Positions 34,979-61,194 of a DNA stretch of 64,000 bases are shown here, piece by piece. Numbering within the stretch: the first letter of the stretch is position 1; each line of letters begins with the position of its first letter. This DNA is from Trichobilharzia regenti (Eukaryota > Platyhelminthes > Trematoda > Strigeidida > Schistosomatidae): positions 125,517,809 to 125,581,808 of the forward strand of contig OX235264.1 of assembly GCA_944472135.2 (NCBI GenBank). The letters run 5' to 3'. The translations under genes were made by a program, and so were the position numbers. The notes under the pieces were generated by a model. It saw only the letters and a program-made list of their open reading frames with translations, was not told where the DNA came from and ran no database searches.

Positions 34979-37300
34979 TAGGACGAACACACGTCATTTT
35001 TCATAGACGTAATCTTTTATTCTTATGGAACTTCCTTACATACACGTGGATTATCTTACACTACCCTGCATCATCGGTTAACTGCTTTACAAAATAAATT
35101 CATGCTTTTCTCAATGTCCTCTCTTTTCACATTTTATCGCATTGTATGCCCCAAACCAACCACTGCTTTCAGCAATTCTTTCCCAATAGAGTTCTCAGCA
35201 TTCATGTATTCTTTTCCAGATGCGATGGGCACTGGAGAAGAAGCAAACGAACGTTAAAAAATAAAATTACCATACATGTATGACCTGTGGGCAGCTCACT
35301 GTCATCGCGCCCAGAGGATGAGATTTACTAGTGGTTTAGCCACTAGGTTTTTAGCTTAGACTGCTCATGACCCCACTAAGGCGGAAGTGGGCTGTAGCCG
35401 TACATAATTCTTCAAAATTATCAGTCTACAGGTTTCCTAACTCAACAGACTGGGTGCTTACCTTCACCGATTAAGACGACTTATTGGGCTGAAGGTACGC
35501 GGTTAAGCCTCTTCGCCAATCATTGCGCTGTTATGTTACGGTAAGACACGACCTATAGCTGGTTTGGAAATCTTCATCATATAGCATTTCTGATCGCAAA
35601 ATGTCTCGTATTTTTGACGATTGACTTGTTGCCCTGATTTCCCTCTAGTTTCAGCAGAAACCTGCGTTTGTAGACGACGTATATCACATGAACGTGAAAG
35701 AACCATTATCTCTTAAGACGTCACTTTACATAAATGTAAGCTAAACCACTACAAGGCGTACACTAACATGGATAGCTCCAAGTGATGACGCGATAAACAA
35801 TGAAAACAAATGAAAACTGGTTTGGTTCCACATAACATGTATACTTTACATCACTTCATACACTGTTTTTCACAAGTAACATCATAGTTTTTTCTTCCCA
35901 GACTACCAGAATGGATTGGCACTTTATAACAACTGGTAGGAACCAAACGTAAAGCCGCATCCGTCCACATACGCCCTTTCATGTCACAAAAAACAATAAC
36001 TTCACGATAACTTGCTCCAACTCAACTAGGAAAAATATGCAAAACACAAAGAAAAATAAATGAATATTTAGCAACAAGATTTGTCGTTCTGATGATAGCA
36101 TTGAAATATAGAAGAGCCGCTAACTGGGAATTTCTATCAGATTAATAGTGCATATCAATGAAAGTTCATATGACACGCAATTAATTCATCACTAAATGAC
36201 AATTCGAATTTGCCTACTTACCCAGTGACATCTGAAAAGAGAAACAACAGATAAGAACCAATTTAGACAATCAGTCAGTGTGAAAGACCAATCACTAACC
36301 ATCTCATAAGACGTGTTATACACGCATCACATAGTACATATTCAACAAGACGAAAGCAATAAAAAACTATGATTTATCCTAGTCGAAAACTAACATGTTA
36401 ATAGCGCTTTGTATTCCACGGGAAGTCATCGAAACTCCTCTTCAGTATGCCCAGTCATTCAGTCTGAAGAGTCTATCATAAATGACAGTTATGTTAAAAA
36501 TACCACTAACTTACCATATAAATCCATCATTTTGTCTCCATCTCAACACCAGTCATTCAGAAAAACTAGACACCACTTACTTGTTGGCTAACAAAAGCCA
36601 GACTCAGACAATTCTCTCTCTCTCTTGTCTTCATGCATCCGTCAACACTGACTAACCATATCCACAAGAGTCCCAGCGAATCTCTCAACACTAACTACTT
36701 GAAACACTTACTAGCTAACTAAAAATCATCAGATCAAGCGTTAAATTTGACAGAGATCTAGGACGACCATATCTCACTCGTCCCCACTCTCTGAGTCACA
36801 GTAAGTCTACGCGAAAACCTAATACACAGTAAAATAAACCACTGGGGACACGCTACATCCGCATAAATACCCTCTCCTACATTCATACACCAAGACACTT
36901 CGTCCAATACACCATCACATCGCTTATAACTCGTCACAACAAGTAGTTTATTCACGGTGTCCAATCTCACACTCGCTCACAATCCCTCAACTAGCAAAAG
37001 TCTACTATTTCGTCCCCCCCCCACAACCATTTTATAACCCTGAAATGCAACACATGTTTCATCAAAAAATACCACGTGAAATCGAGCGCAATCTTAGTGG
37101 GCATACGAAAATACAACACACAATTCACGCTCCAACCAATTCTCAGAAGAATTTTTCTCGAGCACAGTAACCCCTTTGTATATGTTAGATAGAATTCAAC
37201 GACGGTCCAATTTAACTAATGGCGGTTACACTTATGCGCTTTCACTCAATGTTTCTTATACTCTCTTCATCGCATATATTTAGTTGATTAGTACGACGAC
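34979..37300. other. 2.3 kb without a recognised gene or repeat
   Basis: Short frames only. 36760-37020 is C-rich on +, ends in a C9 run, and could be an LTR or UTR of an unrecognised element. No second copy lies in the window. Confidence 0.4.
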
Positions 37301-37760
37301 TCAGTGAAACACTGCGCGTGCCGATGTATAAACCACGGTATATTTCAAACGCAAGCAATGCTTATGACTCGTTTATAAGTCTTTTTTCTAAGAGGCCGCA
37401 ATGGATAACGTCAATTAATGTAGCTCATTTAGCTGGAAGGGACCGACAAACTACAAACAAATTCATCAAGACAAACGAATCCTCTAAAATCCATTCACAG
37501 TGGCGTAGAAGCAATAACTCTCATATCTTGTGTGACCTGACTCTGTTCCTTACACCTCATTCATTCTGTGGCTTTCCACAGTCGCTAGTTTTATTGACTT
37601 CTTAGTCGTTGCTGTCAGCAACTAAAACTCAGTTTGGTGTGAGGTGATGTAACCCAGCTTTACAAATGGTCATAGATATTGCGACTGTCTCATTCTAGCT
37701 TCCTTTATCACCACACCCGCACACACTGTCAGGAAATCATGAGGCTAACTTCGTTCTCAA
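37301..37760. other. RPL38 downstream region
   Basis: A 95-codon + frame (37318-37605) has no recognisable family. Otherwise nothing seen. Lies between the unannotated stretch and the RPL38 poly(A) signal. Confidence 0.4.
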
Positions 37761-37764
37761 AGTA

Positions 37765-37770
37765 TTTATT
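37765..37770 (-). terminator. RPL38 poly(A) signal
   Basis: AATAAA on the minus strand, starting 14 nt after the RPL38 stop codon. Confidence 0.65.
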
Positions 37771-37783
37771 TGTTAATAGCACA

Positions 37784-37806
37784 TTACAGTTCTTTGACAG
37801 TCAGAT
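37784..37806 (-). CDS. RPL38: RPL38 exon 3
   Basis: A 23-nt exon after CTTCCTTTAG that supplies the end of NLTVKEL and TAA. The fit to the conserved VKEL terminus is the main reason for this model. Confidence 0.9.
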
Positions 37807-38076
37807 CTAAAGGAAGAGTCAAGATTAGCCAGTACTTCATTATAATTACTTGGAGGTAGTGAGCGTTTAATCTTTCCAACTTTTTCCTTTTCAACTACAA
37901 CAAGCGTGTATAAAAATCGGCTGCAGCGAATTTTAAATTTGACATTGTCTTTATTCTCTTTGATTTTAACGGCTACAAAAGTTATCATTATGATTAGGTT
38001 TGAATGGCTTACACTTGGCATCTGCCCGTTGCGTCATGTGCAGAAATTCTTTTATGTTGTCCACCTGTCGAGGCAT
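37784..38076 (-). CDS. RPL38: 60S ribosomal protein L38 (eL38), three exons with tiny introns
   Basis: Coding exons, minus strand: 38076-38013, 37972-37850, 37806-37784. They join in phase to 69 codons plus TAA. The start reads [20 protein letters not shown], the middle [20 protein letters not shown], the end IKRSLPPNLTVKEL. Animal eL38 is 70 aa with MPRKIEEIKDFL, NVKFKVRCSRYLYTLV and SLPPGLAVKELK, so start, length and end all fit. It is a structural protein of the large cytosolic ribosomal subunit. Both introns are GT-AG, 40 and 43 nt. Intron 2 has no in-frame stop, so an unspliced reading gives a false tail ending CQRTVMCY. The gene converges with NUP35. Confidence 0.95.
37850..37972 (-). 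CDS. RPL38: RPL38 exon 2
   Basis: Follows CTTTTGTAG and ends CCTCCAA|GTAATT. It holds the basic core of the protein. Confidence 0.93.
38013..38076 (-). CDS. RPL38: RPL38 exon 1
   Basis: Codes for residues 1-21 plus one base; donor GCCAAGT|GTAAGC. Six nt of 5' UTR precede the ATG after an acceptor TTTTATTTCAG. Confidence 0.93.
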
Positions 38077-38260
38077 CTTTGGCTGAAATAAAAGTCAAAG
38101 AATACAGTTTGTTAAGTAAATTCACTCAAGTTCCAAGCGGTTTCTCTTACCACAATGAAAACTTTGATGGATTCTAGTGTAATGTCAAACGAGCCGTGTT
38201 TCAAATATTCTCATATGCATGAGAAATTGCGCGACCGCAAAACACGTCAGTATGGCTTTT
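38077..38260 (-). promoter_or_regulatory. RPL38: RPL38 5' UTR with a short intron
   Basis: The acceptor CAG at 38085-38083 lies 6 nt before the ATG. A donor TTGTG|GTAAGA sits at 38151/38150, which would make a 68-nt 5'-UTR intron. A trans-splice acceptor is the alternative. Confidence 0.55.
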
Positions 38261-38481
38261 TAATTTTTTATTACCGTCATTCGATGACCAAGCTGTCTAC
38301 ATAATTCCATATAGTCCGACAAACTTGTCTTTCCTTCGTCCAAGAGATACTCCAACTCAATTGGATGTCCATATATTCAAGTCGTAATTCAAACTCCACT
38401 ACTAGTTCATTGTGTACCGGATGAAATCAAGCAGAGGTTGTCAATTTCTGAATGGGATTTCGACAATATCACTTAATACAC

Positions 38482-38502
38482 ATCCTAACCCTAACCCAAC
38501 CC
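38482..38502. repeat. Short telomere-like repeat
   Basis: CATCCTAACCCTAACCCAACC: about three imperfect CCCTAA units just upstream of the RTE-A copy. Too short to mean more than a chance or small interstitial repeat. Confidence 0.4.
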
Positions 38503-38552
38503 AAAAAGTTGCTTCTCTCTAAACTTTACTTAATGTAATCATTCCTTTCTCA

Positions 38553-41500
38553 GGCGTGAGGCTAGCAACCCCACCCTGTAAACAAAATTGCTACAGAAAC
38601 TTCAGCAAAATGAACCTCTTTGCACCAAAAGAAAAAGTCTGTGTAGGAACATGGAACGTCCGAACTATGTACGAGACTGGAAAGCTGCCCAGATCGCCAA
38701 CGAGATGAAAAGATACGGAATACAAGTGCTGGGAATATGTGAGAGCAGATGGAATGGGAGTGGACTCACCAAATTGTCAACAGGTGAGTCAGTGATCTAC
38801 TCCGGTCACCCAGAAGATAACCACACGCACACCGAGGGCGTGGCTATCATGATGTCACCAACGGCAACGAAAGCCCTGATACAATGGGAGGCGATTTCGT
38901 CCAGGATAATGACCGCCAGGTTCAACTCCAAAGGAAGGAAAGTGTCAATCATACAATGTTATGCACCCACAAACAACGCAGACCTCGAAAAGAAAGAAGA
39001 ATTCTACAGGCAACTACAGGCAACAATGGACAATACTCCAGCTGGCGACATGAAAATACTAATGGGAGACATGAACGCCAAACTGGGACCAGACAATACA
39101 GGAAGGGAACTCATCATGGGTAGAGAAGCTCTAGGAGAAATGAATGAAAACGGAGAACTCTTCGCCGACTTCTGCGCCTTCAACGAACTGGTGATTGGTG
39201 GCAGTGTATACAAGCACAAAGATATCCACAAGGCTACATGGGTGTCACCAGACGGGCAAACCAAAAACCAAATCGACTTCATCTCAATCTCAAGGAAGTG
39301 GAGGCGCAGCCTACTGGACACAAAAGCAAGAAGAGGAGCAGACGTTGGCTCAGACCACTATCTCGTACAAGGGACAATCCAAATCAAATTAAAAGCTTTC
39401 AGGGAATCAGGAGCTGCAGATAGACCACAAGCCAAGTTCAACACTCAAAAGCTGAAGGACCAGGCTACAAAGGACATCTTCATTGCAAGCATAAAGGACA
39501 AAGCCGAGACACAAATCAACACCAGCGAAAAGGTCAGCGTGGAAAAGCACTGGAACAACTTGAAAACGGTGTGGAGCCAAACCTGCATAGAAATTCTAGG
39601 CAGAAAAAAGAGACAGGACAAACAGTGGCTCACTACGGACACTTGGAAACTAATAGAAGAGAGAAGGACAGTGAAGCAAAAGATTATCCAGTGCACTGAC
39701 GAGCAACAAAAACAGGAGCTGAATGCAAGCTACAATACACTGAACAAAAGAGTGAAGAAGAGTGCCAGGGAAGACAAAAGAAAATATTATGAAACCATGG
39801 CAAACGAAGCAGAACAAGCTGCAGGCAAAGGAGACCTCGCCACACTCTACCAAACAACTAGGCACCTTTCGGGCAAACGTTCGACACAGATTAAGCCAAT
39901 AAAGGACGACAATGGAAAGTCAATCACCAAAGAGGTGGAACAGAGAAAGCACTGGGTTGAACACTTCAAAAGACTTCTAAATCGTCCGCCACCTACAACA
40001 CGTCCAGCAATACCAACAACGGAAGCAGAACTACCAGTGAACACTGACCCCCCGACGAAATCAGAAGTCCTGAATGCAATCAAGATGCTTAAAGCTGGGA
40101 AAACACCGGGACCAGATGGAATCCCAGCAGAGGCTTTGAAAATAGACCCAGAGACAACAGCGGACTTGATGACACCACTGCTGGAGAAGGTGTGGAAAGA
40201 GGGCAAAGTACCCGAGGATTGGAAGAACGGATACTTATTCAAACTTCCAAAGAAAGGAGACTTAAGTCAATGTAAAAACTGGCGTGGAATTATGCTTCTG
40301 TCCATTCCAAGCAAGATACTAAGTCGCATCATCCTGGAGAGAATCAAACAAGCCCTAGATGAAAAACTTCGTCCGGAACAGGCTGGATTCAGGAGAAACA
40401 AATCATGTATTGATCAAATCGCCACTCTACGGATCATCATTGAACAAAGCTTGGAATGGCAGTCACCTCTCTATCTCAACTTCATCGACTTTGAAAAGGC
40501 CTTCGACAGCGTCGATCGAGAGGTCATTTGGAAACTACTTCGCTACTACGGGGTCCCATCGACAATTATACATCTCATCCAACAGTTATACGACAATGCT
40601 GCATGCCAAGTAATCCACAACGGGAAACTTACGGAAGCCTTCGAAGTGAGGACGGGAGTGAGGCAAGGCTGTCTACTATCACCAATGATCTTCCTGATTG
40701 CAATTGATTGGATAATGCGACAGACAACGGCAACCAACGAGGGAACAGGCATAAAATGGACTGACACAAAAGACTTGGAGGATCTGGATTTCGCCGATGA
40801 TATATGTCTGATTTCCCATAAACTGGAAGATATGCAAGTGAAAAGTAACAAGTTGGCAGAAGAAGCATCAAAGATAGGACTTCACGTGAACATAGATAAA
40901 ACAGAGATGATGAAGATTCCTAGCCAACATCAACAGCAACAACAACAGACAACAATCAGCATAAATGGGAAGAACCTGAAAGAAACAACCTCCTTCACCT
41001 ACCTGGGAAGCATCGTCTCAACTACAGGCGGAACTGACGAGGACATCAAAGCCAGAATCGGAAAAGCAAGACAAGCTTTCATTACTCTCAAATCTGTGTG
41101 GAGGTCAACAGCACTCAGCATCAAAAATAAGATCCGGATTTTCAACTCCAATGTGAAGTCAGTGCTACTATACGGATCAGAGACTTGGCGAGTCATAAAG
41201 AGCATCTCAAACAAACTTCAAACCTTCATTAACAGCTGTCTCCGCTCAATACTCAAGATCAGATGGCCAGAAAAGATCAGCAACAGGGATCTCTGGGAGC
41301 GAACCAATCAGGAACCGATTGTGAAACAAATAGGCAGAAAGAAATGGAGATGGATTGGCCATACGCTGAGGAAACCATCAAGTGACATCACTAGACAAGC
41401 CCTCGAGTGGAACCCGAAAGGGAGGCGGCGAGTTGGTCGTCAGTGCAAGGGTGACTTGGAGGAGGTCATGCGAGGAGGAGATGAAAGCATGTGGACAGAC

Positions 41501-41612
41501 CTGGAGCAGGGTGAAAAAGTTGTCAGAAAACCGAAGTCAATGGAGGTGCGCAGCTGAAGCCCTATGTTCCTCTAGGAACTAAAGGATACAATAATAATAA
41601 TAATAATAATAA
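38553..41612 (+). mobile_element. Near-full-length RTE-A non-LTR retrotransposon
   Basis: A 5' leader (GGCGTGAGGCTAGCAACCCC region), EN-RT coding region, GCCCTATGTTCCTCTAGGAA end and (AAT)n tail. EN and RT motifs and the tail are those of the RTE clade, to which the schistosome SR2/SjR2 elements belong; the exact name was not checked. The 5' boundary is approximate and no target duplication was found. Confidence 0.85.
38610..41557 (+). pseudogene. RTE-A endonuclease-reverse transcriptase with two frameshifts
   Basis: Endonuclease: the first block (VCVGTWNVRTMYETGK) starts at the ATG at 38610. One base is missing at about 38684, so the long open frame (AAQIANEMKRYGIQVLGICE onward) is in another frame; it runs open only because it reads upstream through non-native codons. 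MGDMNAKLG and the GSDHY block follow, then the linker. RT has GPDGIPAEALK, NWRGIMLLSIPSK, QAGFRRNKSCIDQ, IDFEKAFDSVDRE, RQGCLLSP and FADD at about 735-738. The C-terminus has KKWRWIGHTLRKP. After GRRRVGR, at about 41442, a 4-nt insertion relative to 12145 shifts the last ~45 codons. The correct frame resumes at 41382-41582. All catalytic residues are present but the copy cannot make the whole protein. Confidence 0.88.
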
Positions 41613-41639
41613 CATAATTTTTGACGCCAGGATTCGGTT

Positions 41640-41895
41640 CTAGCAAACACTCAACCTTCCGAGCATCCAACACCTCCCTGAATGGGATATAGACACAGGT
41701 CCTCCATCCCTAACTGAGGTTACTAAAGCTGTCACCAATCTGAAACTAGGCAAAGCAGCGGGACCTGATGGAATGACTCCAGAGGTATTTAAGTACGGTA
41801 GAGACAGCTTACTGTCTGCATTAACTGAGGTACTAGGCAGCGTCTGGGAATCAGAAGAAGTCCCATCGGGTTGGTGTAAGTCACTGATTATTATT
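41640..41895 (+). mobile_element. RTE-B fragment (+), start of RT
   Basis: TGAATGGGATATAGACACAG, AGCAGCGGGACCTGATGGAA (AGPDG motif) and TTGGTGTAAGTCACTGATTA match 9710-9925 of the RTE-B copy. Confidence 0.75.
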
Positions 41896-42004
41896 ATTGA
41901 CTCGTAGGTTAAAATTAGTTTAGAATGGTTGTAAGCTTGGGATTGTAGGACTGTGTACTTATAAGTTCACTATAGTCCAACCACACGTAAGTTTGCTAGA
42001 CTGT

Positions 42005-43351
42005 CTCTGTCTGTCTGTTTTCGACATAGAACTTTTCACAAATGTGCGGAAGTTCAAGTCGCCACACTCCGTGTAGCACGCGAAGCAAGAGAAGAAAGTA
42101 CAAGAAAAGCATAATAGAAACAGTGAGCAGAGGTGTGAGACAAAGGAGTAATAAAGAAATACAAAACAGTTTCATTGAAGATCATAAGTCACAGGGAGTG
42201 GATGCATCTGTGCCACTGAGAACGGTTTTGAGCCATATCACCAACTGTTTTCAACCATAGATTTTTACCGTCCCGAGGACCCCAGCCTGGAAGCCATTCT
42301 ACACCTTCCTACGTGGCTTAGACTAACTGTTGTGGATTTCATTGACTGATGCCAAGTTTTTGTTTGACCGCCGCTAGCTTTTTTCCAGCCTGACCCTATA
42401 TCCGCTAACATAGCTCGTCGAGGGAGGCGATGGCTTGGCATACGTAACACATGTCCTAACCATCTCAGTCTTTGTAACTTCACGACTTCGTCGATTGATT
42501 TCCCCTGTTTACCTAGAACTCTACGCCTAACCTCCATGTTGCTCACCTTATTATGCCACTTTACACGGGAAATAGAGCACAGGCACCTATGATCAAAGCC
42601 AGCTAGTCTTTTCATGTCTTCCACTCTCAGTGGTTAGGTCTCACAACCATAAAGGAGGACGGAGCGGACTGATGAGCAGTACACCCGCCCTTTGGTCGAT
42701 AGTCGAACATCTCGTCTACGCCAGAGTCGGCGTAAACTAACAAATGCGAAACGAGCCCCTTGTATTCGTGCTGAGATTTCGTCAGAGATCAGCCCGTTGG
42801 GGCTGATGGTACTTCCCAAATAAGTGAAGCGGTCAACGTGCTCTACCACTTCACTTCCTATTTTTAAACTAGGCGTCGATGTAGTCCAGTCAGTCCTGTA
42901 ACTTCATCTTGCATTTGGCGGGAGCGAATCGCATGCCAAACATTCGTAGACTGCGGCTCAAGGTGTTTAGAAGACTCTGCATTTCGTCAGCGTCTTCACC
43001 TAGAAGGACTATATCGTCTGTATATTCCAAGTCAACGAGATTATTCCCCGGTAGCAAGTCAATCCCTGAGTCGCTGAAGTCACTTAGGGTTAAGTCCATT
43101 AACACATCTATGATGAAGTTGAATAGAAAAGGGGATAATGGGCATCCTTGACGGACACCACTGGTCGTCATCAGTTCAGATGACAGCTCGCCATAAGCCC
43201 TCACCTGGCTGTATGAGTACGAGTAGAGTGCCTTAATCAGTGCAATATATTTTCTCGGAATTCCCTTTACAGCCAAGCATCTCCAGAGAACTTCTCGATT
43301 GACAGAGTCGAATGCCGCCTTTAGGTCAAGAAATATAATGACTGTTGGACG
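42005..43351 (-). mobile_element. 5'-truncated RTE-B (-) with RT palm and 3' UTR
   Basis: From CGGCGTCCAACAGTC near 43350 to the terminal CTGTCTGTCTG at 42010. It shares long stretches with 28539-29273 at very high identity. The coding parts are described below. Confidence 0.85.
42265..42849 (-). pseudogene. RTE-B C-terminal region, split by a stop
   Basis: 42849-42634 reads VEHVDRFTYLGSTISPNGLI and ARFAFVSLRRLWRRRDVRLS. After GCET a stop replaces the Trp seen at 29150. 42624-42265 continues EDMKRLAGFDHRCLCSISRV and RLRWLGHVLRMPSHRLPRRA. Confidence 0.8.
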
Positions 43352-43522
43352 CCGGTAGGAATCCAAAATGAAGTCCCGTCTCCTACTTCGGTATGATAAA
43401 TGAGATCTCATCTCGAGATTTAAATACTCCATCTTCTTATCATAAGGTTTCGAACGGCGACAAATGTTTGTGCAGATCACTACATTAACTAGCTGTAACC
43501 AATAATGTTCGCATATCACCAC
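42890..43522 (-). pseudogene. RTE-B RT palm fragment
   Basis: RRPTVIIFLDLKAAFDSVNR (motif A), GVRQGCPLSPFLFNFIIDVL, LVDLEYTDDIVLLGEDADEM (YTDD instead of YADD) and RMFGMRFAPAKCK. The first ~57 residues come from sequence outside the element. The frame ends early because of a short insertion near 42890. Confidence 0.85.
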
Positions 43523-44181
43523 TCATAATATAAAACAAAAACAACTCTACGAAAAACATGTGACAACCTACCGGATATCTCTACAGTCAGTTATCACTTG
43601 TTCCTACCGGCCTCCTTGATATACTCGAGTTTAAGAAAACAAACAGAAATTGAAGGTCTGGAATGTGTTTCCGCATGTCCAGTTATTCTCTTCCTTTCAT
43701 TAGTCGGACGCTTTAATATGCAGTCATTTTGACGTTTCGTGTGCTTACATCTGTTTATATCAATTTATTGCACTAGAAAATTAGAGTTTACATGGCAGCA
43801 GCTTAAATAGCTTTCAAAGATTTGTGGGAACCACTAACTGAGTGGTTTGGCGAAGTGGATTAGATATTGCTGTTGCTTAACATTTTATTATAAAGTGTAG
43901 TTTTCCACGAGTGGTGAAATGTAATTTGAATGGTTTCTTCAGGAAAGGAGGGTGGCAATTTCCATCTTGTGAACTAAATTCAGCTTTTGTCGTGTGAATC
44001 ACATCAGAAGCTTTTCGGTTTAATCTAACTGACTTAATTCACTGAAGAATTGCCCTTCTGTTCACTCTGCATTTTGTGTGTGGTTTAACTTCATTCTGTG
44101 TTTGGATACATAAATACTACAGATATATGTACATACATGCAGAAAAAAGTCCGTAATTTGTCAAAAACTTACGTCGACATA
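43352..44181. other. No feature recognised
   Basis: AT-rich sequence between RTE-B and the BEL-B element. No coding or repeat match seen in the window. Confidence 0.4.
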
Positions 44182-44538
44182 TAACAGCCACGTACCCTAA
44201 ACCGATAATGCCCAGCTCTTGCTACGCTGGGCCTCACGCTCATCCTCCTTGCTTCTCAGAAACGCTTAGTACGAACGGACAAAAAACCAGAACACAGGTT
44301 GGCGACTCGAGAATTCTTTATTCTAACACCAACATATAGCTAACCTTACAACTAAGGTCTGTGAACAAATATTACAATAATAAATCACAATATTACTTCT
44401 GACGGTTTGTCCAGACTTCTTTCTGAACAGCCACCGATGAGACGATGACTGGAGTATTGATGCCTATGCGAAAATTAGGGAAGTTGGGTTTGAGCAAACA
44501 ACCGTGAATTGATCGTTCAATCTTCAACTACATTGACA
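44182..44538 (-). repeat. BEL-B 3' LTR
   Basis: Matches 51808-52164 almost exactly except for the outer ~45 bases, where several changes cluster and the terminal TGTCAG has become TAACAG. A polypurine-like TGCCGGGGAG precedes it on minus. Confidence 0.8.
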
Positions 44539-45490
44539 CTCCCCGGCAAAAAAGGATCCAACCACTTTTTCCATCACGACCAATACACGTTGACTTGGAT
44601 GCCATTGCGAGAACCCGGGTCACACGGACAGAGCTGAAATGGAAAACAAACAGAAAAGCCAACACTCCACAAGCATACCCACAGCACAATCTCACACATC
44701 GATGAAGACCTGCGCCTCCAGTTAAAGGCATCCTCTTGCAACACAATCGCCACTTGCTAGAATGACTCTTGCAGAATGCAACGTGACCATAGCACCACCT
44801 CACGATACTCTACGCACATCCTCTTATCTACTTACTACCAATTACCACTGCAATCGCTTGTCCCTCATTCTGCCTCAGTTCTAGTAGTGGTGACGAATGC
44901 GAGCCTCAGTCGTTTACACTCTTTCTCCCCGGCGTGTCGGACCGCAGCTAACAATTATCTCCGTGTGCATTTCATTCTCACCAATAGCCTAGCCTCCCCG
45001 GCGTATACGCCCCATCTGCTGTCCTTAACATCAATCTATTCATTCATGGATGTAGAAGAGTGGACACAACTTCAGAAGTAATCACGACGAAAATTTTAAC
45101 AAAATTATGCAACAAAAGCAGGGTACGAAAACAACCAGCAAACACAATGAATCCAAAATACACCGATTGATATGACACACCACACGTATATACAAACAGC
45201 ACAAACAAACTCGCAGATCGTGTCTCGATGGAATTCCTTTGAAGAATTGCAGGACTTACACCAGTACGCCTACAACACTTCACAGGTTGACGATTGTAAG
45301 TTGTGGAATGTCCGGACACAAACAGAATTACCAACAGCTAGATGACAGATGATATCAATTCAGTATATACAATATGAATATATGTACAAAATCACACACC
45401 GAGCATTTTTGACTGCTCATTGATGCGCTACCCTTTGAAGAACTGTAGGACTTACAGCAGTACGCCTACAACCCTTCTCAGGTTGACGCC

Positions 45491-46138
45491 CTAGGTTGGA
45501 AAATCGTTGCAGAGTTCATTTGCTAACTTCCTTCTATCAGCTATATCCTCAAATCTAAACGGCAACACGCCCATGTCATTGTATCGTAGAATATAGATGA
45601 CCAACAAACACACGACATATCTCATCAACCAAGTGTAGAAACAGAGTAATTTACACCAAAGATAATAACATTCAATTAGTAACTTGAAACTAGAAATGCC
45701 TTTATTCATGCAAGTCAATTTAACAATTACTCTCTCGTTTACACTTGGCTTATTCACACTAAACTGACCATTGATATTCGTCCTTTCAAACGAACTGATA
45801 CTACCATAGTCATTGCACAAGATACTTGAGTTGATGGGTGTCTGTTTCATTGTGGATGACAGCACCAACGATGACTGAGTGACACAAGGTGATGAACTTA
45901 GTGGTGGATCAGAAGCTGTTCTTGTTCGGCTCTCAGATAGTTGTCCAACTGCAAGATTACCACCACTGCTGTCTTTCACTACTAGTTCGGGTTTAGCACT
46001 ATCATCTGATGATAGGTGGGCTACACGCTGATCAATTACACTGACTGCCTCACAAGTATGCACACCTTTTGGAAGTGCATCTGCGTTCAATTCTACTTCA
46101 CGTTGTAGTTTTTTTTGATTTACAGCTTGATTCCACAC
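45491..46138 (-). pseudogene. BEL-B second ORF (membrane-segment C-terminus)
   Basis: Native part starts at about LQREVELNADA; the first residues come from SINE sequence. Near-identical to BEL-A 48107-48752. It has a Ser-rich stretch, then a hydrophobic run (LWCKLLCFYTWLMRYVVCLL, then VIYIL) and ends FRFEDIADRRKLANELCNDF. Function unknown; could be a Gag extension or a relic of an envelope-like protein. Confidence 0.65.
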
Positions 46139-46284
46139 TGTATTTTTGGTACAAGTATGGAATTTTTAGCATGAATATCGGTAGCCCAAATTTTGCAGGC
46201 CGACCATAGATATCAGGTGTGCGACGGGGTCGGCTCGAACCCCGGACCATATTCATGATCGGCGAGTCATAACCACTGTGCCAC

Positions 46285-46653
46285 TGTCAATGGAGTTGAA
46301 GATTGAACGATCAATTCTTGGTTGTTTGCCTAAAATCAACTTCCCCGATTTTCGCGGAGGCATCAATACGACAGTCATCGTCTCATCGGTCGCTGTTCAG
46401 AAAGAAGAGTGAAACATCGTCAGAAGTAATACAGAGATTTATTATTGTAATATTTGTTTTCAGACCTTAGTTTACTTAGTTCGCTTATTCCTTTTATATG
46501 TTGGTGTAACAACAAACAAATCTAAAGCGGCAGATCAGTGTTTTGGTTTTGTCGTCCGTTATAACTAAGCGTTTCTGAGAAATCTTCGAAGAACAGAGTG
46601 GGCCCGAGCGTAGCGAGAGCGGGGCATTAACGGTTTATGAGACGTGATTGACA
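46285..46653 (+). repeat. BEL-A 5' LTR
   Basis: Begins TGTCAATGGAGTTG and ends GTGATTGACA. Confidence 0.88.
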
Positions 46654-46797
46654 GTTTCTGACGATAGAAACAGATCCGGCGGATTCAAACAGTTGGTGAA
46701 AGTTTGGATAGTCACCGTTCATTTTTCCTGGTGCCTGCCAAGTCCTCTTTGAACAAGCAATATCTGGAACTGTTTTGGAATTGGGTCAAGTTCAACA

Positions 46798-47955
46798 ATG
46801 CCTGGGTCAAAGAAGGGACAGAGTGTCTTGGATGCAAACAGGAAAGTAAGTCATGGTGACTTGTCTGTTAGTTGTAACGATGTGTCTGATGTTAAGCATG
46901 ACATGGTTGATGTTATTGTTTCGCCGTTCAGGGATAATAGGAACATCAAACTCCCTAAGTTTGAACCACGGTGTTTTGATGGAAACCCAGCTGATTATTT
47001 ACAATTTGTAAAGGAGTTTGAGATCATGTTGAGTGGTATTTTATTAAATGATGAATTGAAGTTAATGTATTTGATGAGATATTGCGCTGGAGATGCTTCA
47101 AGAGCTATACAGTGCTGTAAGTTTATGAAGCCAAAAGAGGGCTACTACGAGGCTATGAGCATATTACGTCAAAGGTTTGGAAGACCTTCGATGATTGCAG
47201 GGGAATTATTCGAGGCTGTTCAGGGTAATGGTGGTCAATTACAGGATAACTCCAAGGCACTCACTGAGTTTTTAGATAATTTGCTAATTTACAAGAATGC
47301 AATGATTTCGATGAATTGCATGAATGACCTCAACTCGAGTTCTATTTTAGAAGTAATAGCAAGACGTATACCTACTCGGCTGCGAAGGAAGTGGGTGGAG
47401 ATAAGCTCCCGTATGGAGGATGAGGGTATCGAGCCGAAGTTTGATGATATCCTGAAACTGGTAAAAGATAGCGTCAATCAATCTATGAGCAAGTTTTCCA
47501 GTCTATTAGATCTCACCCATAGAATAGAGCAGTCTGAGATCAAAATGCAATCACTGATGACGAATAGGCCTCAGAGAGGTGGATATCGAGAAGGTTCCAT
47601 GATGTTTAGTAATGCATATAGACCTAGTGAGTGTAACAGGTTTCATAGTACATCCTCAACAGATAAGTTACAAGATACAAGACAAACACGGTTGTGTTTT
47701 ACACGTTTGCAAGAGGTGCATACAGAGGTGAACTGTGAACCGGTGAGCAAGTTCAGTGATAAGCTAAATGTAAACTCCAGGCCTTACTCCGAATTGTGTA
47801 ACGATAACGGTGTTGTGAAGAAGTCTGTAGTTGCAACTGGTAAGCCATTGTTGAATAGAGTGTCACAGAATAGAGTTACTGCTTCAGAGTGGAGTTCTGA
47901 CTCCACAAGTTTACAAGGTATTACTAGTCAGAGTGAAGTTATAAAACCTTTATGA
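46798..47955 (+). pseudogene. BEL-A gag-like ORF
   Basis: 385 codons from MPGSKKGQSVLDANRK. The DUF1759-like region KLPKFEPRCFDGNPADYLQF...LMRYCAGDASRAIQ lies at about residues 50-105. The C-terminal half is basic (NRPQRGGYREG) and lacks a zinc knuckle. It ends EVIKPL* where BEL-B continues, because one base is missing near 47945. Almost identical to the BEL-B ORF (for example I for F in MLSGILLN). Confidence 0.82.
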
Positions 47956-48752
47956 TTTGTGAGGAGGAACCAAAATTGTCTACTTCTGTTATTAAAGAAT
48001 TTGAAAATGATGAAGTTGATGGTAAATTGAATATTCGTGATAATGATCATGATAATTCACAGTTGTCTTTGGTTGATCATTATGAGATGAGGGATATGCC
48101 TACTACTGCTAAGTTAAATAAAAGTTCTGTAGAACTACAACGTGAAGTAGAATTGAACGCAGATGCAGTTCCAAAAGGTGTGCATACTTGTGAGGCAGTC
48201 AGTGTAATTGATCAGCGTGTAGCCCACCTATCATCAGATGATAGTGCTAAACCCGAACTAGTAGTGAAAGACAGCAGTGGTGGTAATCTTGCAGTTGGAC
48301 AACTATCTGAGAGCCGAACAAGAACAGCTTCTGATCCACCACTAAGTTCATCACCTTGTGTCACTCAGTCATCGTTGGTGCTGTCATCCACAATGAAACA
48401 GACACCCATCAACTCAAGTATCTTGTGCAATGACTATGGTAGTATCAGTTCGTTTGAAAGGACGAATATCAATGGTCAGTTTAGTGTGAATAAGCCAAGT
48501 GTAAACGAGAGAGTAATTGTTAAATTGACTTGCATGAATAAAGGCATTTCTAGTTTCAAGTTACTAATTGAATGTTATTATCTTTGGTGTAAATTACTCT
48601 GTTTCTACACTTGGTTGATGAGATATGTCGTGTGTTTGTTGGTCATCTATATTCTACGATACAATGACATGGGCGTGTTGCCGTTTAGATTTGAGGATAT
48701 AGCTGATAGAAGGAAGTTAGCAAATGAACTCTGCAACGATTTTCCAACCTAG
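47952..48752 (+). CDS. BEL-A second ORF, continuation of gag in another frame
   Basis: 266 codons, MICEEEPKLSTSVIKEFEND to ADRRKLANELCNDFPT. In BEL-B the first part is in frame with gag, so this is probably the C-terminal half of a longer ancestral protein rather than a separate gene. It is acidic and Ser-rich, then has a hydrophobic segment at about residues 215-240 (YYLWCKLLCFYTWLMRYVVC). Its role is not known. Confidence 0.6.
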   Translation: MICEEEPKLSTSVIKEFENDEVDGKLNIRDNDHDNSQLSLVDHYEMRDMPTTAKLNKSSVELQREVELNADAVPKGVHTCEAVSVIDQRVAHLSSDDSAKPELVVKDSSGGNLAVGQLSESRTRTASDPPLSSSPCVTQSSLVLSSTMKQTPINSSILCNDYGSISSFERTNINGQFSVNKPSVNERVIVKLTCMNKGISSFKLLIECYYLWCKLLCFYTWLMRYVVCLLVIYILRYNDMGVLPFRFEDIADRRKLANELCNDFPT

Positions 48753-48754
48753 GG

Positions 48755-49215
48755 CGTCAACCTGAGAAGGGTTGTAGGCGTACTGCTGTAAGTCCTACAG
48801 TTCTTCAAAGGGTAGCGCATCAATGAGCAGTCAAATGTGCTTGGTGTGTGATCTTTTACATATGTTCATATTGTATATACTGAATTGATATCATCTGTCA
48901 TCTAGCTGTTGGTAATTCTGTTTGTGTCCGGACGACTTCCACTTGGATCATCAACCTGAGAAGGAATGTAGGCGTACTGGTGTAAGTCCTACAGTTCTTC
49001 AAGGGTAGTTTGTCGTGTCAGAATCCACAACATTTGTTGTGTTGATTGTACATATGTTTGTGTTAAATAGTTGTGTGAGTTCCAATTGATGTAATTGTTG
49101 GTTAATCTTGTTTGTGTCTGGACATTCCACAACTTACAATCGTCAACCTGTGAAGGGTTGCAGGCGTACTGGTGTTAGCTCTGCGATTCTTCAAAAGAAT
49201 TCCATCAAGACATGA
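48755..49215 (+). repeat. Three tandem ~190-bp units in BEL-A
   Basis: Units start near 48755, 48950 and 49140. Each has a GTCAACCTGAGAAGGGTTGT-like start, GGCGTACTG and TCCTACAGTTCTTCAA. The BEL-B copy has only two (about 45230-45305 and 45420-45490, minus strand). Confidence 0.7.
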
Positions 49216-49861
49216 TCCGCGAAGTTATTTGTACTGTTTGTGTATACGTGTGGTGTGTCTTCGCAATTTGTGATTTTGGATCAGTTGTGTTTACTGACTG
49301 TTTTCGTGCCTTGTTTTTATTGCATAATTTTGTTAAAATTTTCGTCGTGATTACTTCTGAAGTTGTTTCTTGTCTTCTACATCCGTGAATGAATTGATTG
49401 ATGTTAGAGACAGCAGATGGGGCGTATACGCCGGGGAGGCTAGGCTATTGGTGAGAATGAAATGCACACGGAGATAATTGTTAGCTGCGGTCCGACACGC
49501 CGGGGAGAAAGAGTGTAAACGACTGAGGCTCGCATGCGTCACCGCTACTAGAACTGAGGCAAAATGAGGGACAAGCGATTGCAGTGGTAATTGGTAGTAA
49601 GTAGATAAGAGGATGTGCGTAGAGTATCGTGAGGTGGTGCTATGGTCACTTTGCATTCTGCAAGAGTCATTCTAGCAAGTGGCCGCGCAGGTCGTCATTG
49701 ATGTTTGAGACTGTGCTGTGGGTATGCTTGTGGAGTGTTGGCTTTTCTGTTTGTTTTCCATTTCAGCTCTGTCCGTGTGACCCGGGTTCTCGCAATGGCA
49801 TCCAAGTCAACGTGTATTGGTCGTGATGGAAAAAGTGGTTGGATCCTTTCTTGCCGGGGAG

Positions 49862-50230
49862 TGTCAATGCAGTTGAAGATTGAACGATCAATTCTTGGTT
49901 GTTTGCCTAAAATCAACTTCCCCGATTTTCGCGGAGGCATCAATACGACAGTCATCGTCTCATCGGTCGCTGTTCAGAAAGAAGAGTGAAACATCGTCAG
50001 AAGTAATACAGAGATTTATTATTGTAATATTTGTTTTCAGACCTTAGTTTACTTAGTTCGCTTATTCCTTTTATATGTTGGTGTAACAACAAACAAATCT
50101 AAAGCGGCAGATCAGTGTTTTGGTTTTGTCGTCCGTTATAACTAAGCGTTTCTGAGAAATCTTCGAAGAACAGCGTGGGCCCGAGCGTAGCGAGAGCGGG
50201 GCATTAACGGTTTATGAGACGTGATTGACA
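49862..50230 (+). repeat. BEL-A 3' LTR
   Basis: Same ends and length as the 5' LTR. It is preceded by the polypurine-like TTGCCGGGGAG at 49851-49861. Confidence 0.88.
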
Positions 50231-50409
50231 GCCACCGACGCGCAGGAATCGATCCTACCGATATCTGTGAGGATAATTGTTGTAAAATATTTGTGCAGAA
50301 CCTCTATTTAACTTAGCAGTAGTGGACATTCCCCTCATTTCATCATGATCAACCAAAGACAACTGTGAAGTACCATGATCATTATCACGAATATTCAATT
50401 TACCACCAT

Positions 50410-51639
50410 CTATCTGGTCGACTTCATCATTTTCAATCTCTTAATAACAGAAGTGGATGATTTGTGTTCTTCCTCACAAATCGCTAAAGATTTTATACCT
50501 TCACTCTGACTAGTGATACCTTGTAAACTTGTGGAGTCAGAACTCCACTCTGAAGCAGTAACTCTATTCTGTGACACTCTATTCAACAATGGCTTACCAG
50601 TTGCAACTACAGACTTCTTCACAACACCGTTATCGTTACACAATTCGGAGTAAGGCCTGGAGTTTACATTTAGCTTATCACTGAACTTGCTCACCGGTTC
50701 ACAGTTCACCTCTGTATGCACCTCTTGCAAACGTGTAAAACACAACCGTGTTTGTCTTGTATCTTGTAACTTATCTGTTGAGGATGTACTATGAAACCTG
50801 TTACACTCACTAGGTCTATATGCATTACTAAACATCATGGAACCTTCTCGATATCCACCTCTCTGAGGCCTATTCGTCATCAGTGATTGCATTTTGATCT
50901 CAGACTGCTCTATTCTATGGGTGAGATCTAATAGACTGGAAAACTTGCTCATAGATTGATTGACGCTATCTTTTACCAGTTTCAGGATATCATCAAACTT
51001 CGGCTCGATACCCTCATCCTCCATACGGGAGCTTATCTCCACCCACTTCCTTCGCAGCCGAGTAGGTATACGTCTTGCTATTACTTCTAAAATAGAACTC
51101 GAGTTGAGGTCATTCATGCAATTCATCGAAATCATTGCATTCTTGTAAATTAGCAAATTATCTAAAAACTCAGTGAGTGCCTTGGAGTTATCCTGTAATT
51201 GACCACCATTACCCTGAACAGCCTCGAATAATTCCCCTGCAATCATCGAAGGTCTTCCAAACCTTTGACGTAATATGCTCATAGCCTCGTAGTAGCCCTC
51301 TTTTGGCTTCATAAACTTACAGCACTGTATAGCTCTTGAAGCATCTCCAGCGCAATATCTCATCAAATACATTAACTTCAATTCATCATTTAATAAAAAA
51401 CCACTCAACATGATCTCAAACTCCTTTACAAATTGTAAATAATCAGCTGGGTTTCCATCAAAACACCGTGGTTCAAACTTAGGGAGTTTGATGTTCCTAT
51501 TATCCCTGAACGGCGAAACAATAACATCAACCATGTCATGCTTAACATCAGACACATCGTTACAACTAACAGACAAGTCACCATGACTTACTTTCCTGTT
51601 TGCATCCAAGACACTCTGTCCCTTCTTTGACCCAGGCAT
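50410..51639 (-). pseudogene. BEL-B gag-like ORF
   Basis: 409 codons from ATG (MPGSKKGQSVLDANRKVSHG). The block KLPKFEPRCFDGNPADYLQF, VKEFEIML and KLMYLMRYCAGDASRAIQ is the BEL/Pao Gag type (DUF1759-like capsid). No CCHC zinc knuckle is visible. In a BEL element Gag forms the particle. Compared with BEL-A it reads on through SLAICEEEHKSSTSVIK, then leaves frame after a 1-nt loss near 50440 and stops. Confidence 0.8.
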
Positions 51640-51807
51640 TGTTGAACTTGACCCAATTCCAAAACAGTTCCAGATATTGCTTGTTCAAAGAGGACTTGGC
51701 AGGCACCAGGAAAAATGAACGGTGACTATCCAAACTGTCACCATCTGTCAGATATCGACAGAAACTGACTGGAAACCGTCAGAATCTGACAACGTACCGT
51801 CAGAAAC

Positions 51808-52164
51808 TGTCAGTCACGTCTCTTAAACTGTTAATGCGCAGCTCTTTCTACGCTGGGCCTCACGCTCATCCTCCTTGCTTCTCAGAAACGCTTAGTACGA
51901 ACGGACAAAAAACCAGAACACAGGTTGGCGACTCGAGAATTCTTTATTCTAACACCAACATATAGCTAACCTTACAACTAAGGTCTGTGAACAAATATTA
52001 CAATAATAAATCACAATATTACTTCTGACGGTTTGTCCAGACTTCTTTCTGAACAGCCACCGATGAGACGATGACTGGAGTATTGATGCCTATGCGAAAA
52101 TTAGGGAAGTTGGGTTTGAGCAAACAACCGTGAATTGATCGTTCAATCTTCAACTACATTGACA
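51808..52164 (-). repeat. BEL-B 5' LTR
   Basis: Begins TGTCAATGTAG and ends GTGACTGACA on the minus strand. The upstream half is clearly related to the BEL-A LTR, the rest much less. Confidence 0.82.
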
Positions 52165-53140
52165 ACATGAGAATCATAAAAATTTTTGAACGATGGGACT
52201 AGCAGTTTCTAGTGGGTGATGGGATGCAGTGCGGTTAGTGCGACCTAGGCGACTTATGGTTTTGTAAATTTTGCACTGGTTTACTGCCATCAACCTGTAG
52301 AAATTTCGCAGCAGTCTTTCGGACGTCTTAATCCAAGAGGCCGTGGAACTTCTCATCTCCAAGAATTCGACAATGTGTTGAGATGACGGTAAAAGCCAGC
52401 TTCCGAAATCGATACAGGGAACCACGAATGTTGGCTTAATCGCATTACTCTGACAGAACTACATCTCGAAGTGACAGACACAAAGGAGGCATTGTGTGCT
52501 AAATAATATCCAGTGTTTCGCAGCAGGTCCTGGAATCTCAGATGGCTGCTAGTTCCAACACTGTAGGACCACCTGGTTTATGTATCACACAAAATTCTCG
52601 ACGCGCCTGGTGGAATAATGACTTCTATATGCTGTGAGAGCAAAGTGGAAGACACTGACTCCTCTCGACTTGTGCTGAAAATCAGGAAGCTGAAAAACTA
52701 TATAATCATACACATTTAGTATGAACAAGTAAACTTACATGAAATGCATACCATTTTTACTGCCACGATCAATTATGTCACAAATTACAATTGTGAATTA
52801 GCATAGATTATCACCTTTTCAAAAGTCCAAATCGTTGAATTACAGTACAAGCGATCAGAACAAATTCTCATAAATGTTACATTGTAAACCCTTCACTAAG
52901 TTCACCATCGAAGGTGAGTGACAACCCAAACTTAGTTTCATTTCCTGATGATGGTTTCGGTCAACTGATAAACAACATATGTCAAGGAACTTATCCATAA
53001 GTTCCTGTTGTTATGAAGACGCTCTGCATCGATACATACTATGTACTTTCTTTGACTTGAACTCCGAAACACCGGTATTGTAAGAAGGAAGCTATATCGA
53101 TTGGCAATTAAAGTGGAGAACAGAACAAGCCTACAAACAA
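52165..53140. other. Between BEL-B and element D: nothing firm
   Basis: Two minus-strand frames (52425-52174, 53153-52938) have no recognisable similarity. The part nearest 53140 may be the tail of element D. Confidence 0.4.
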
Positions 53141-57581: not shown

Positions 57582-57994
57582 ATCATACCAACAAAAACAG
57601 TGGCAGCTTAAATAAACCCACACTTCCCACGGTCAATAGTACTAGCACCCACAACGTGCTTAATCGCACCATGGCACACACTGATATCCAATGTCACAAC
57701 AATGTCACCCTCAATAGTACAAGTGGTAATAGTCAGAACTCGGCTATCAACAACTTAGGGTCTTCAGAGTATGGCACACAAACAAATTTTGACCGGATAT
57801 ATGGTACAAGTCTGCTGGGAACTAACCCACAATGCAGTACACATGAAACCCACACAAGGACACAACTAGCATCAAACAATAGGTGGAATAATAAGCCATG
57901 GTCATCACAAGGATCCAATCATTTTTTATCCCCCGCGTCCCTGTCAGCGTTGAAAAAACAGCTGGTAGGGATGTTAACACTCCTAAACCACTAG
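57527..57994 (+). CDS. Element C ORF1 tail in the next frame
   Basis: LSSPSHNFIAKGKENMPLNH then Asn/Ser/Thr-rich sequence to LKKQLVGMLTLLNH. Overlaps ORF1 by 55 nt and ORF2 by 97 nt. Best read as the original C-terminal extension of ORF1; it could also be joined by programmed frameshifting. Confidence 0.5.
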   Translation: MSSPSHNFIAKGKENMPLNHTNKNSGSLNKPTLPTVNSTSTHNVLNRTMAHTDIQCHNNVTLNSTSGNSQNSAINNLGSSEYGTQTNFDRIYGTSLLGTNPQCSTHETHTRTQLASNNRWNNKPWSSQGSNHFLSPASLSALKKQLVGMLTLLNH

Positions 57995-60900: not shown

Positions 60901-61194
60901 CACAAAATATCATTCTCAGGTAACAGGGACATACAATTCGCACAGGAAGGTTCTTACGATCTGCGTAACCAAACTTCCACAGTGACAACTCATTCTTTTA
61001 GGTCAACACTCCGTGAAAACTTCTTCACAGTCATGTATTCTAAAATATGGAATAGCCTGCCTATAGATATCAGAACTTGCTCTTCGGTTACAAGCTTCAA
61101 ACGCTCTCTATACAGACTGTTTCACTCTACTGATTATATTAATAAACTATTTACTCCTAGAACGAATCAAGCACTAATCTACTACAGCACCTAA
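57898..61194 (+). CDS. Element C ORF2: intact endonuclease-reverse transcriptase
   Basis: 1098 codons without a stop. After a ~140-residue lead, the APE endonuclease: LYLILINARSVLNKLPMLRA, VIVITESW (catalytic Glu), GGKGGGCLMYF, CGDFN at 283-287 and SDH at 350-352. RT: SSKGFGTDGISSYFYKYG, NYRPINITPIASRIMERLV, QHGFLKSRSCLTCHL, IYFDISKAFDRVDHLLL, SGVVQGSVIGPLLFTLYIND and FADD at 810-813. The C-terminal domain has LLGCILRNFHDNEAKLILYK, TCVRPLLEYCPFI and WNSLPIDIRTC. The protein nicks target DNA and copies the element RNA. The start is uncertain; the first clearly useful Met may lie further in. Confidence 0.9.
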   Translation: MVITRIQSFFIPRVPVSVEKTAGRDVNTPKPLELAPSLHENRNGLVHPYPLGTLDTCTNIGQIKNPTHFCNLTKNKNSLVYSKSSTPTPNSPPKTAHNNSIDIGEHDAGTPLNIGSSCQAELLCAEPYSGLTNELKYFKCYFNSHLYLILINARSVLNKLPMLRALTVIYKPPVIVITESWCHSNILDEEISLDNYTHFRCDREGGKGGGCLMYFLNALTVSQLESSTLNMPETLWVNVHLNNVTALIGCTYRAPGTFSNYETQLINTLEQLSDLQYDHKILCGDFNLPEINWDIPTGPTKFDKFLGTLDILGWKQTVTTPTRGNNVLDLIFCHNISPLSTLVGSEFPGSDHKTVMCALPIPLSSNASHTSTSQQVIYRNYSKANWALVESMLRSSEWDEYFTTDDLSRALTIFYHNTNTCLDAVIPLQTLKVSPHRKSFIKPKDRRKLKKLSTSYFKHHDFGTLGLILNTLSSISQARDFRMRKEERIAVASPARVYALTEILRKRMNRKNHSISLLIDKGRLCTNSADICELFNKTFAGNYIKPSVQLLDIHPITNMAQTPSPLTPNQISTVKFTYANINQTIRTLKSSKGFGTDGISSYFYKYGGPDIPLLLLKIFTMSLETQTYPDIWKTTFIMPKHKSGSKTEVSNYRPINITPIASRIMERLVKDNLIKHMLSCNIISPNQHGFLKSRSCLTCHLDFFNFVTSSRDRRQLVLVIYFDISKAFDRVDHLLLTNKLNSLGIRDPLLGWLKSFLNNRSQIVKLGSATSKPSPITSGVVQGSVIGPLLFTLYINDICACFTHGKPFIFADDLKVAYTFQSDDLGNFENVVQKELDKMTAWSSLWNLQFNLNKCGWICFGAPSIDLKLTLQSANLTRLRSVVDLGLRYSSDLTFSEQVASQTRKSRMLLGCILRNFHDNEAKLILYKTCVRPLLEYCPFIISSTRTRDKLRMESIQRYFTSKLLGYDCKKDYISRCMILKLDPLWTRRLIINLIFFFKVLHKISFSGNRDIQFAQEGSYDLRNQTSTVTTHSFRSTLRENFFTVMYSKIWNSLPIDIRTCSSVTSFKRSLYRLFHSTDYINKLFTPRTNQALIYYST

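Follow-up and report, generated by a model that had tools for sequence, protein, structure and literature searches.

This analysis concerns a window of 64,000 nucleotides from the trematode Trichobilharzia regenti (assembly GCA_944472135.2, contig OX235264.1, positions 125,517,809 to 125,581,808 of the forward strand) that contains two BEL-type long terminal repeat (LTR) elements without pol, BEL-A and BEL-B. BEL-A lies within BEL-B in inverted orientation, and the two elements share a gag block and a block in the second open reading frame (ORF2) that are nearly identical, while their LTRs belong to different subfamilies. These shared blocks were probably generated by local, non-allelic gene conversion between the nested inverted copies after insertion rather than by template switching. 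Such conversion would account for a gag that, of the copies examined, occurs in this pair alone, for the abrupt block ends and for the persistence of distinct LTRs.

BEL-A is inserted in a short interspersed element (SINE) that already interrupted BEL-B. Because BEL-A sits in the SINE and the SINE sits in BEL-B, the order of events is BEL-B first, then the SINE, and then BEL-A. The target duplication of BEL-A is perfect over 5 bp and its LTRs end in TGTCA..TGACA. The flanks of BEL-B (ACATA at 44177-44181 and ACATG at 52165-52169) agree at 4 of 5 positions, and its 3' LTR no longer ends in CA. A sequence-only reading of this DNA had given the span 46285-51808 for the pair; that span covers BEL-A and one half of BEL-B, and the copies are nested, not adjacent. 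The features are collected in Table 1.

Table 1. Features of the BEL-A/BEL-B locus (window positions)
Feature	Position	Strand	Basis or remark
BEL-B, host element broken by SINE and BEL-A	44182..52164	-	LTR/repeat comparison
BEL-B 5' LTR, 357 nt	51808..52164	-	LTR alignment
BEL-B 3' LTR	44182..44538	-	LTR alignment
BEL-B gag block common with BEL-A	50499..51736	-	2/1238 sites differ
BEL-B ORF1, 409 aa, DUF1759	50410..51639	-	ORF list and domain scan
BEL-B ORF2 block common with BEL-A	45408..46110	-	1/703 sites differ
SINE (tRNA-like), 3' part, inserted in BEL-B	46111..46284	-	repeat copies: 5 good and 2 partial matches elsewhere in window
SINE 5' part, other side of BEL-A	50231..50253	-	start approximate
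BEL-A, nested in SINE	46285..50230	+	target duplication GCCAC 46280-46284 / 50231-50235
BEL-A 5' LTR, 369 nt	46285..46653	+	LTR alignment
BEL-A 3' LTR	49862..50230	+	2/369 differ from BEL-A 5' LTR
BEL-A gag block common with BEL-B	46701..47938	+	alignment
BEL-A ORF1, 385 aa, DUF1759	46798..47955	+	ORF list and domain scan
Middle stretch, divergent between BEL-A and BEL-B	47939..48132	+	22/192 differ
BEL-A ORF2 block common with BEL-B	48133..48835	+	alignment
BEL-A ORF2, 266 aa, C-terminal half of ~650-aa protein of T. regenti database entries	47952..48752	+	
BEL-A 3' region with short BEL-A/BEL-B patches	49422..49849	+	8 sites absent from 15 aligned A-type copies; element C has BEL-B's version
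Inverted duplication, left arm (minimum extent), inner end in BEL-B	35000..45507	.	right arm outside window, from C3:125600228

The identity between BEL-A and BEL-B changes abruptly along their length. In the leader, the initial 47 nt (46654-46700 in BEL-A) differ at 8 of 45 sites and carry indels, the gag block differs at only two sites, the middle stretch at 11.5% of its sites, and the ORF2 block at one. Past ORF2 the differences amount to 6/94 (6.4%) at 48836-48929, 27/188 (14.4%) at 49131-49319 and 17/392 (4.3%) at 49320-49711, and the last interior stretch (49712-49861) is close again with one difference in 150 sites. BEL-A has an additional repeat unit of ~0.19 kb and is without ~32 nt. 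The LTRs of the two elements show 52 mismatches over 350 aligned sites and 26 gap columns. Taken together, the gag and ORF2 blocks differ at 3 of 1941 sites compared with 81 of 1061 in the remaining interior (Fisher 1e-33, with block borders chosen after the differences had been viewed). A shuffle test that is independent of the borders gave a longest run with two mismatches or fewer of 1238 nt against a maximum of 595 nt in 10,000 shuffles. The block edges are sharp, and the leader start, the middle stretch, the post-ORF2 repeats and the LTRs are divergent. The near-identity of gag and ORF2 and the strong divergence of the LTRs and leader start described in the sequence-only reading are thus borne out, and uniform divergence along the elements is ruled out. 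Its statement that the identity continues up to the polypurine tract does not hold, as the stretches outside the two blocks diverge and only the last, 49712-49861, is close.

This profile bears on two explanations that do not involve recombination. Selection on the protein could keep gag and ORF2 alike, and the identical blocks are mostly coding. It is contradicted because the identity spans all codon positions (3/1941 sites differ) and extends equally to the untranslated leader at 46701-46797; other copies of the same gag also differ by more than 4%, and we give this explanation practically no weight. An assembly or polishing artefact could have copied one block onto the other, as nested inverted copies are difficult to assemble, but the blocks keep three differences, end in mid-element and leave the divergent flanking stretches preserved, which makes an artefact very improbable.

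Comparison with other copies of the family determined that the gag block is private to the two elements among the copies examined. BEL-A and BEL-B are 99.8% identical in gag; among 22 other copies the closest reaches 95.7% to BEL-A and 95.8% to BEL-B. Against these 22, thirteen gag positions are common to BEL-A and BEL-B only, and seven more to these two and element C, a related copy outside the window. Of the two gag differences, one is an odd base in BEL-A that is present in 1 of the 22 others, and the other is an odd base in BEL-B that is present in none. At the protein level, eight BEL-A gag residues (one not in BEL-B) occur in no aligned row of 50 database hits and nine more in one or two rows, although these rows are representatives of 90% clusters and residue rarity among them is weak support. 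In ORF2 the pair is 99.9% identical, and the closest of 19 other copies reaches 98.7% (BEL-A) and 98.6% (BEL-B). In the middle stretch the pair is only 85.5% identical and the nearest of 20 others is at 95.9% (BEL-A) and 90.1% (BEL-B). The value for the 3' region (96.7%) is barely above that of BEL-A and the nearest copy with its LTR type (A-type; 96.5%). Twelve positions in the 3' half are common to BEL-A and BEL-B and absent from 15 A-type copies, with 4 in ORF2, 8 in the 3' region and 0 in the LTR.

Of 136 pairs, BEL-A/BEL-B ranks first for the length of its concordant run in both alignment pieces (180/398 and 93/332 polymorphic sites). Its LTR divergence divided by its gag divergence gives 83.7, the highest value of 171 pairs (next 22.7, median 0.77); L031, a copy whose own LTRs differ from each other, takes part in every pair from rank 2 to rank 12. 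BEL-A and BEL-B group with 100/100 support in the gag tree, with element C as sister at 100/98 (the bootstrap of this tree not being fully settled), and with 95/87 in the ORF2 tree. A clade of the two is rejected in the LTR tree of 79 rows (approximately unbiased (AU) test, p 0.0002) and appears in 0% of bootstraps of the middle-stretch tree (194 nt).

The sequence-only reading had named two possible causes, template switching and conversion of the interior, and of these conversion is favoured, at the DNA level and at this locus. With template switching during reverse transcription, a recombinant RNA parent of BEL-A or BEL-B would join the LTR of one subfamily to the gag and ORF2 of the other, and BEL-A would land in a near relative by chance. 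The mosaic nature of the family agrees with such a process, since the database proteins are patchworks of sequence types and many copy pairs have unexpectedly long shared runs, and dating alone would permit it. However, at least two separate double-ended blocks would be needed, and the gag block is present only in two mutually nested copies and in 0 of 22 other gag copies. Template switching also cannot explain a neighbouring event between BEL-B and element C that includes flanking DNA, and a 317-nt patch in the BEL-B LTRs is not readily explained by it (both are described below). We therefore consider it unlikely. A further alternative is that BEL-B was converted by the parent of BEL-A elsewhere in the genome before BEL-A inserted. 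Conversion between distant LTR elements is documented (PMC4921805), but no such parent is among the copies examined and BEL-A would have had to land by chance in the exact element that its parent had converted, so that this course of events is distinctly improbable. Conversion at the DNA level between BEL-A and BEL-B themselves is favoured because of the inverted nesting, the gag that is private among the examined copies, and the other non-reciprocal events, one of which includes flanking DNA.

In ORF2, the likely direction of conversion as judged from the alignments is from BEL-A to BEL-B, because the shared ORF2 is closer to A-type copies (up to 98.7%) than to the copies with B-type LTRs (L046, L052, L055, L064 and L065, at 85.6-95.2%). 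The direction in gag is undecided. The shared gag falls among the A-LTR copies, with the B-like copies L034, L056 and L058 outside, together with one A-LTR copy (L023), and this favours BEL-A to BEL-B. Several results weigh against the account given here, and the first concerns this direction. No other copy comes within 4% of the shared gag, whose sister is element C, and this favours a local origin of the gag; the LTR, ORF2, middle stretch and repeats of BEL-A are 96-99% alike to their nearest copies. Dating does not discriminate between the explanations, as 3/1941 differences in the blocks and 2/369 in the BEL-A LTR pair are compatible (p 0.18). The lead of the pair in ORF2 is smaller than in gag, and the ORF2 block is weaker evidence because four A-type copies each share a 71-site run with BEL-B, compared with 93 for BEL-A. 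Many other copy pairs also exceed all shuffles in run length, and the family is therefore a mosaic that recombines or converts in general. The middle stretch alone fails to reject a BEL-A and BEL-B clade (AU p 0.21), and the private sharing of gag holds against the 22 copies examined, other copies not being proved absent genome-wide.

Two other non-reciprocal patterns were found at the locus. The first is in the LTR pair of BEL-B, which is identical over 317 of 317 nt and then differs at 10 of 40 at the outer end (Fisher 1e-10). Over its whole length (10/357) the pair is more divergent than that of BEL-A. The changes in the outer 40 nt include three in the 5' LTR and four in the 3' LTR that are absent from 27 B-type LTRs. 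The simplest reading is that BEL-B is old and that its LTRs were homogenised over 317 nt; alternatively, the outer end of one BEL-B LTR may have been replaced by a patch from elsewhere. An argument that BEL-B is older by uniform LTR divergence was dropped, as the pattern is 0/317 followed by 10/40.

The second involves element C (C3:125597788-125601553, + strand), which lies ~28 kb to the right of BEL-B and outside the window. It combines an A-like 5' LTR (92.7%), gag and middle stretch with the 3' region and 3' LTR of BEL-B (2/357 differ), and no target duplication was found at it. BEL-B and element C have 3 mismatches in 2823 nt (BEL-B 45507 down to 42685), including ~1.5 kb of chromosomal flank, and 19 mismatches in 529 nt beyond 45508. 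Element C was also considered as proof that the ORF2 of BEL-B was overwritten after duplication. This was dropped, since the duplication ends at the end of ORF2 and the ORF2 of element C belongs to its 5' half.

The shared segment is part of a larger inverted duplication. Window positions 35000-36500 have an inverted, near-identical copy at C3:125609233-125610733 whose axis agrees with that of the shared segment to within 2 nt, and positions 19000-20500 have no near-identical second copy among the best 40 of 15611 candidates scored. The arms (35000-45507 and C3:125600228-125610733) are ~10.5-25 kb long with a spacer of ~37 kb that contains BEL-A; they are near-identical where both were read, at 35000-36500 and 42685-45507. 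The inner end of the duplication falls in the BEL-B/element C homology, which would fit non-reciprocal copying started by homology.

The following series of events is proposed. BEL-B, an old pol-less BEL-type element, was interrupted by a SINE before the arrival of BEL-A, and the younger BEL-A, with the LTRs of another subfamily, then inserted into it in the opposite orientation. The two thereby formed interleaved inverted repeats within 8 kb, and non-allelic gene conversion at the DNA level would have homogenised the gag and ORF2 blocks while the LTRs, leader start, middle stretch and post-ORF2 repeats remained subfamily-specific. The patch in the BEL-B LTR pair and the copying of the BEL-B 3' end and its flank into element C would be two more non-reciprocal events. 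A broader idea, which we put forward tentatively and regard as possible rather than likely, is that backward insertion into an older copy makes a self-converting inverted repeat in which the gag and ORF2 of a dead host may be refreshed or exchanged and its own LTR type kept. New pairings of LTR and body could then form on the chromosome, with no reverse transcription involved, and might spread afterwards, and the nearby inverted duplication might mark the same cluster as a local recombination hub.

The assignment of both elements to the BEL class is based on coding content and termini. The gag-type domain DUF1759, which we take to be linked to BEL/Pao, is found in both (E 8e-11 and 1e-10, over the curated cut-off). 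TG..CA LTR ends and a 5-bp target duplication are typical of BEL/Pao, and both are present in BEL-A. In agreement with the sequence-only reading, no pol was found between gag, ORF2 and the 3' LTR of either element. The two ORFs that it had described are present, but they correspond to halves of one protein, as database entries of 637-655 aa carry BEL-A ORF1 and ORF2 together. Neither element keeps a single unbroken ORF: in BEL-A the reading frame is interrupted where ORF1 gives way to ORF2, in BEL-B by the SINE and further changes, and unbroken ~650-aa copies are present in databases. The top rows of the protein search are T. regenti entries with 84-91% identity, alongside a T. szidati entry (61%), and BEL-A is about as far from the T. 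regenti copies as these are from each other. A search with the C-terminal half, which covers proteins of 0.55 to 1.75 times the query length, gave 33 matches that are all named Trichobilharzia (one name incomplete); this half holds a hydrophobic stretch as judged by eye. A search of IMG/VR with gag gave one pattern match and zero confirmed relatives, although close records from the same genome may be missing from that search. One database protein (P0035, "Trichob...") joins the C-terminal half (56% over 70%) to a PAP2 phosphatase domain and may be a fused gene or an annotation merge.

The distribution of the family was examined over 954 Mb in 548 contigs. The search with the A-type LTR gave 42 matches (best 40 of 2135 candidates scored) and that with the B-type LTR gave 41 (best 40 of 5424). 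Complete copies with the layout LTR-leader-gag-middle-ORF2-repeat-3' region-LTR were found in 15 of 20 stretches fetched around A-type LTRs, and the remaining five contain pieces that are partial, solo or nested. None of the 15 has room for pol, as judged by contiguous layout and length without a domain scan. Their 5-bp target duplications, with flanks read by eye, are perfect in 8, shifted by one base in 1, matched at 4/5 in 2 and unmatched in 4. This many-copy LTR-gag-LTR layout without pol is that of a non-autonomous, gag-only LTR element. The suggestion that the pol-less body has spread under two LTR types is upheld in part, since B-like LTRs (~90%) adjoin the leader, gag and middle stretch in L056 and ORF2, repeat and 3' region in L046, L052, L055, L064 and L065, but just one end of each of these copies is known.

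The search for pol-bearing relatives of each LTR type, which the earlier reading had called for, gave a candidate for the B-like LTR only. In L058 (contig C2, B-like LTR 90.3%), a gag that is 84% alike over 801 nt is followed by a weak match to the aspartyl protease PF13650 (E 3e-4; 21.9 bits, below the cut-off of 24.3). This points to an association of the B-like LTR with a lineage that carries enzymes. Among the copies examined, no counterpart of L058 with an A-type LTR was seen. A pair of B-like LTRs ~8 kb apart on C339 was considered as a pol-bearing element and rejected, as the 3 kb fetched contains ORFs that by eye resemble those of long interspersed elements (LINEs) and not BEL pol.

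These elements can be compared with known systems. The TR-GAG elements of plants have LTRs and gag without pol, as do BEL-A and BEL-B, but the elements described here differ in having a BEL-type gag (DUF1759), an added C-terminal half and an animal host. LTR elements named Nonaut occur in Schistosoma mansoni (PMC8293314) and, going by this name, are likewise non-autonomous. With regard to conversion, two further studies document non-allelic gene conversion among the LTRs of human endogenous retroviruses (PMC4921805) and report that in 1042 of 4126 nested pairs of plant LTR elements the LTRs of the host are more similar than those of the insert (PMC7251063). The patchwork sequence and sharp borders at the present locus resemble these cases, and the first 317 nt of the BEL-B LTRs (0/317) are likewise more alike than the BEL-A pair (2/369), as in the nested plant pairs. 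In the portions of these studies considered, the converted sequences are LTRs. At the present locus, by contrast, interior coding sequence makes up the longest blocks, the partners are an element and its own inverted insert, and the LTR types stay distinct. A literature search found no paper that joins gene conversion, nested insertion within the same family, retrotransposons and the internal region, which is not proof of novelty. The locus is a new and unusually clear example of a known process, LTR-element conversion, here affecting interior coding blocks of two elements nested in inverted orientation. At this locus a retroelement body looks as if it had been moved between LTR types, yet the surroundings point to conversion at the DNA level after insertion. 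It also serves as a warning against dating or classifying such elements from partial sequence, as BEL-B would be taken for a young element from its gag and from 317 nt of its LTR, although it predates both the SINE and the BEL-A within it.

Several minor observations were made on the same elements and their surroundings. Gag-only copies with 5' and 3' LTRs of different types are present in L031 (551-4536) and L036 (419-4386), with 56 and 28 mismatches between the pair. The motif GCCGGGGAG, which is found 5' of the 3' LTR, also occurs twice within the 3' region of BEL-A (49430-49438 and 49499-49507). Near position 4303 of L021, an A-type 5' LTR directly follows the 3' region of another copy and GCCGGGGAG, resembling a tandem LTR array. 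The SINE in BEL-B was called tRNA-like from its repeat copies and from motifs that we presume to be box-like; ARAGORN found zero tRNA over the window. Further copies of this SINE, ~82-91% alike, are located at window positions 1423, 20757, 21504, 22995, 31482 and 34257, with a fragment at 989-1052. Window positions 35725-36405 (~0.7 kb) are ~71% alike to a tandem array, spaced at ~1.73 kb, that is located at about 75.76-75.79 Mb of C8. Two long open frames, at 38582-41557 (991 codons) and 57895-61194 (1099 codons), have by eye the look of LINE polyproteins with reverse transcriptase.

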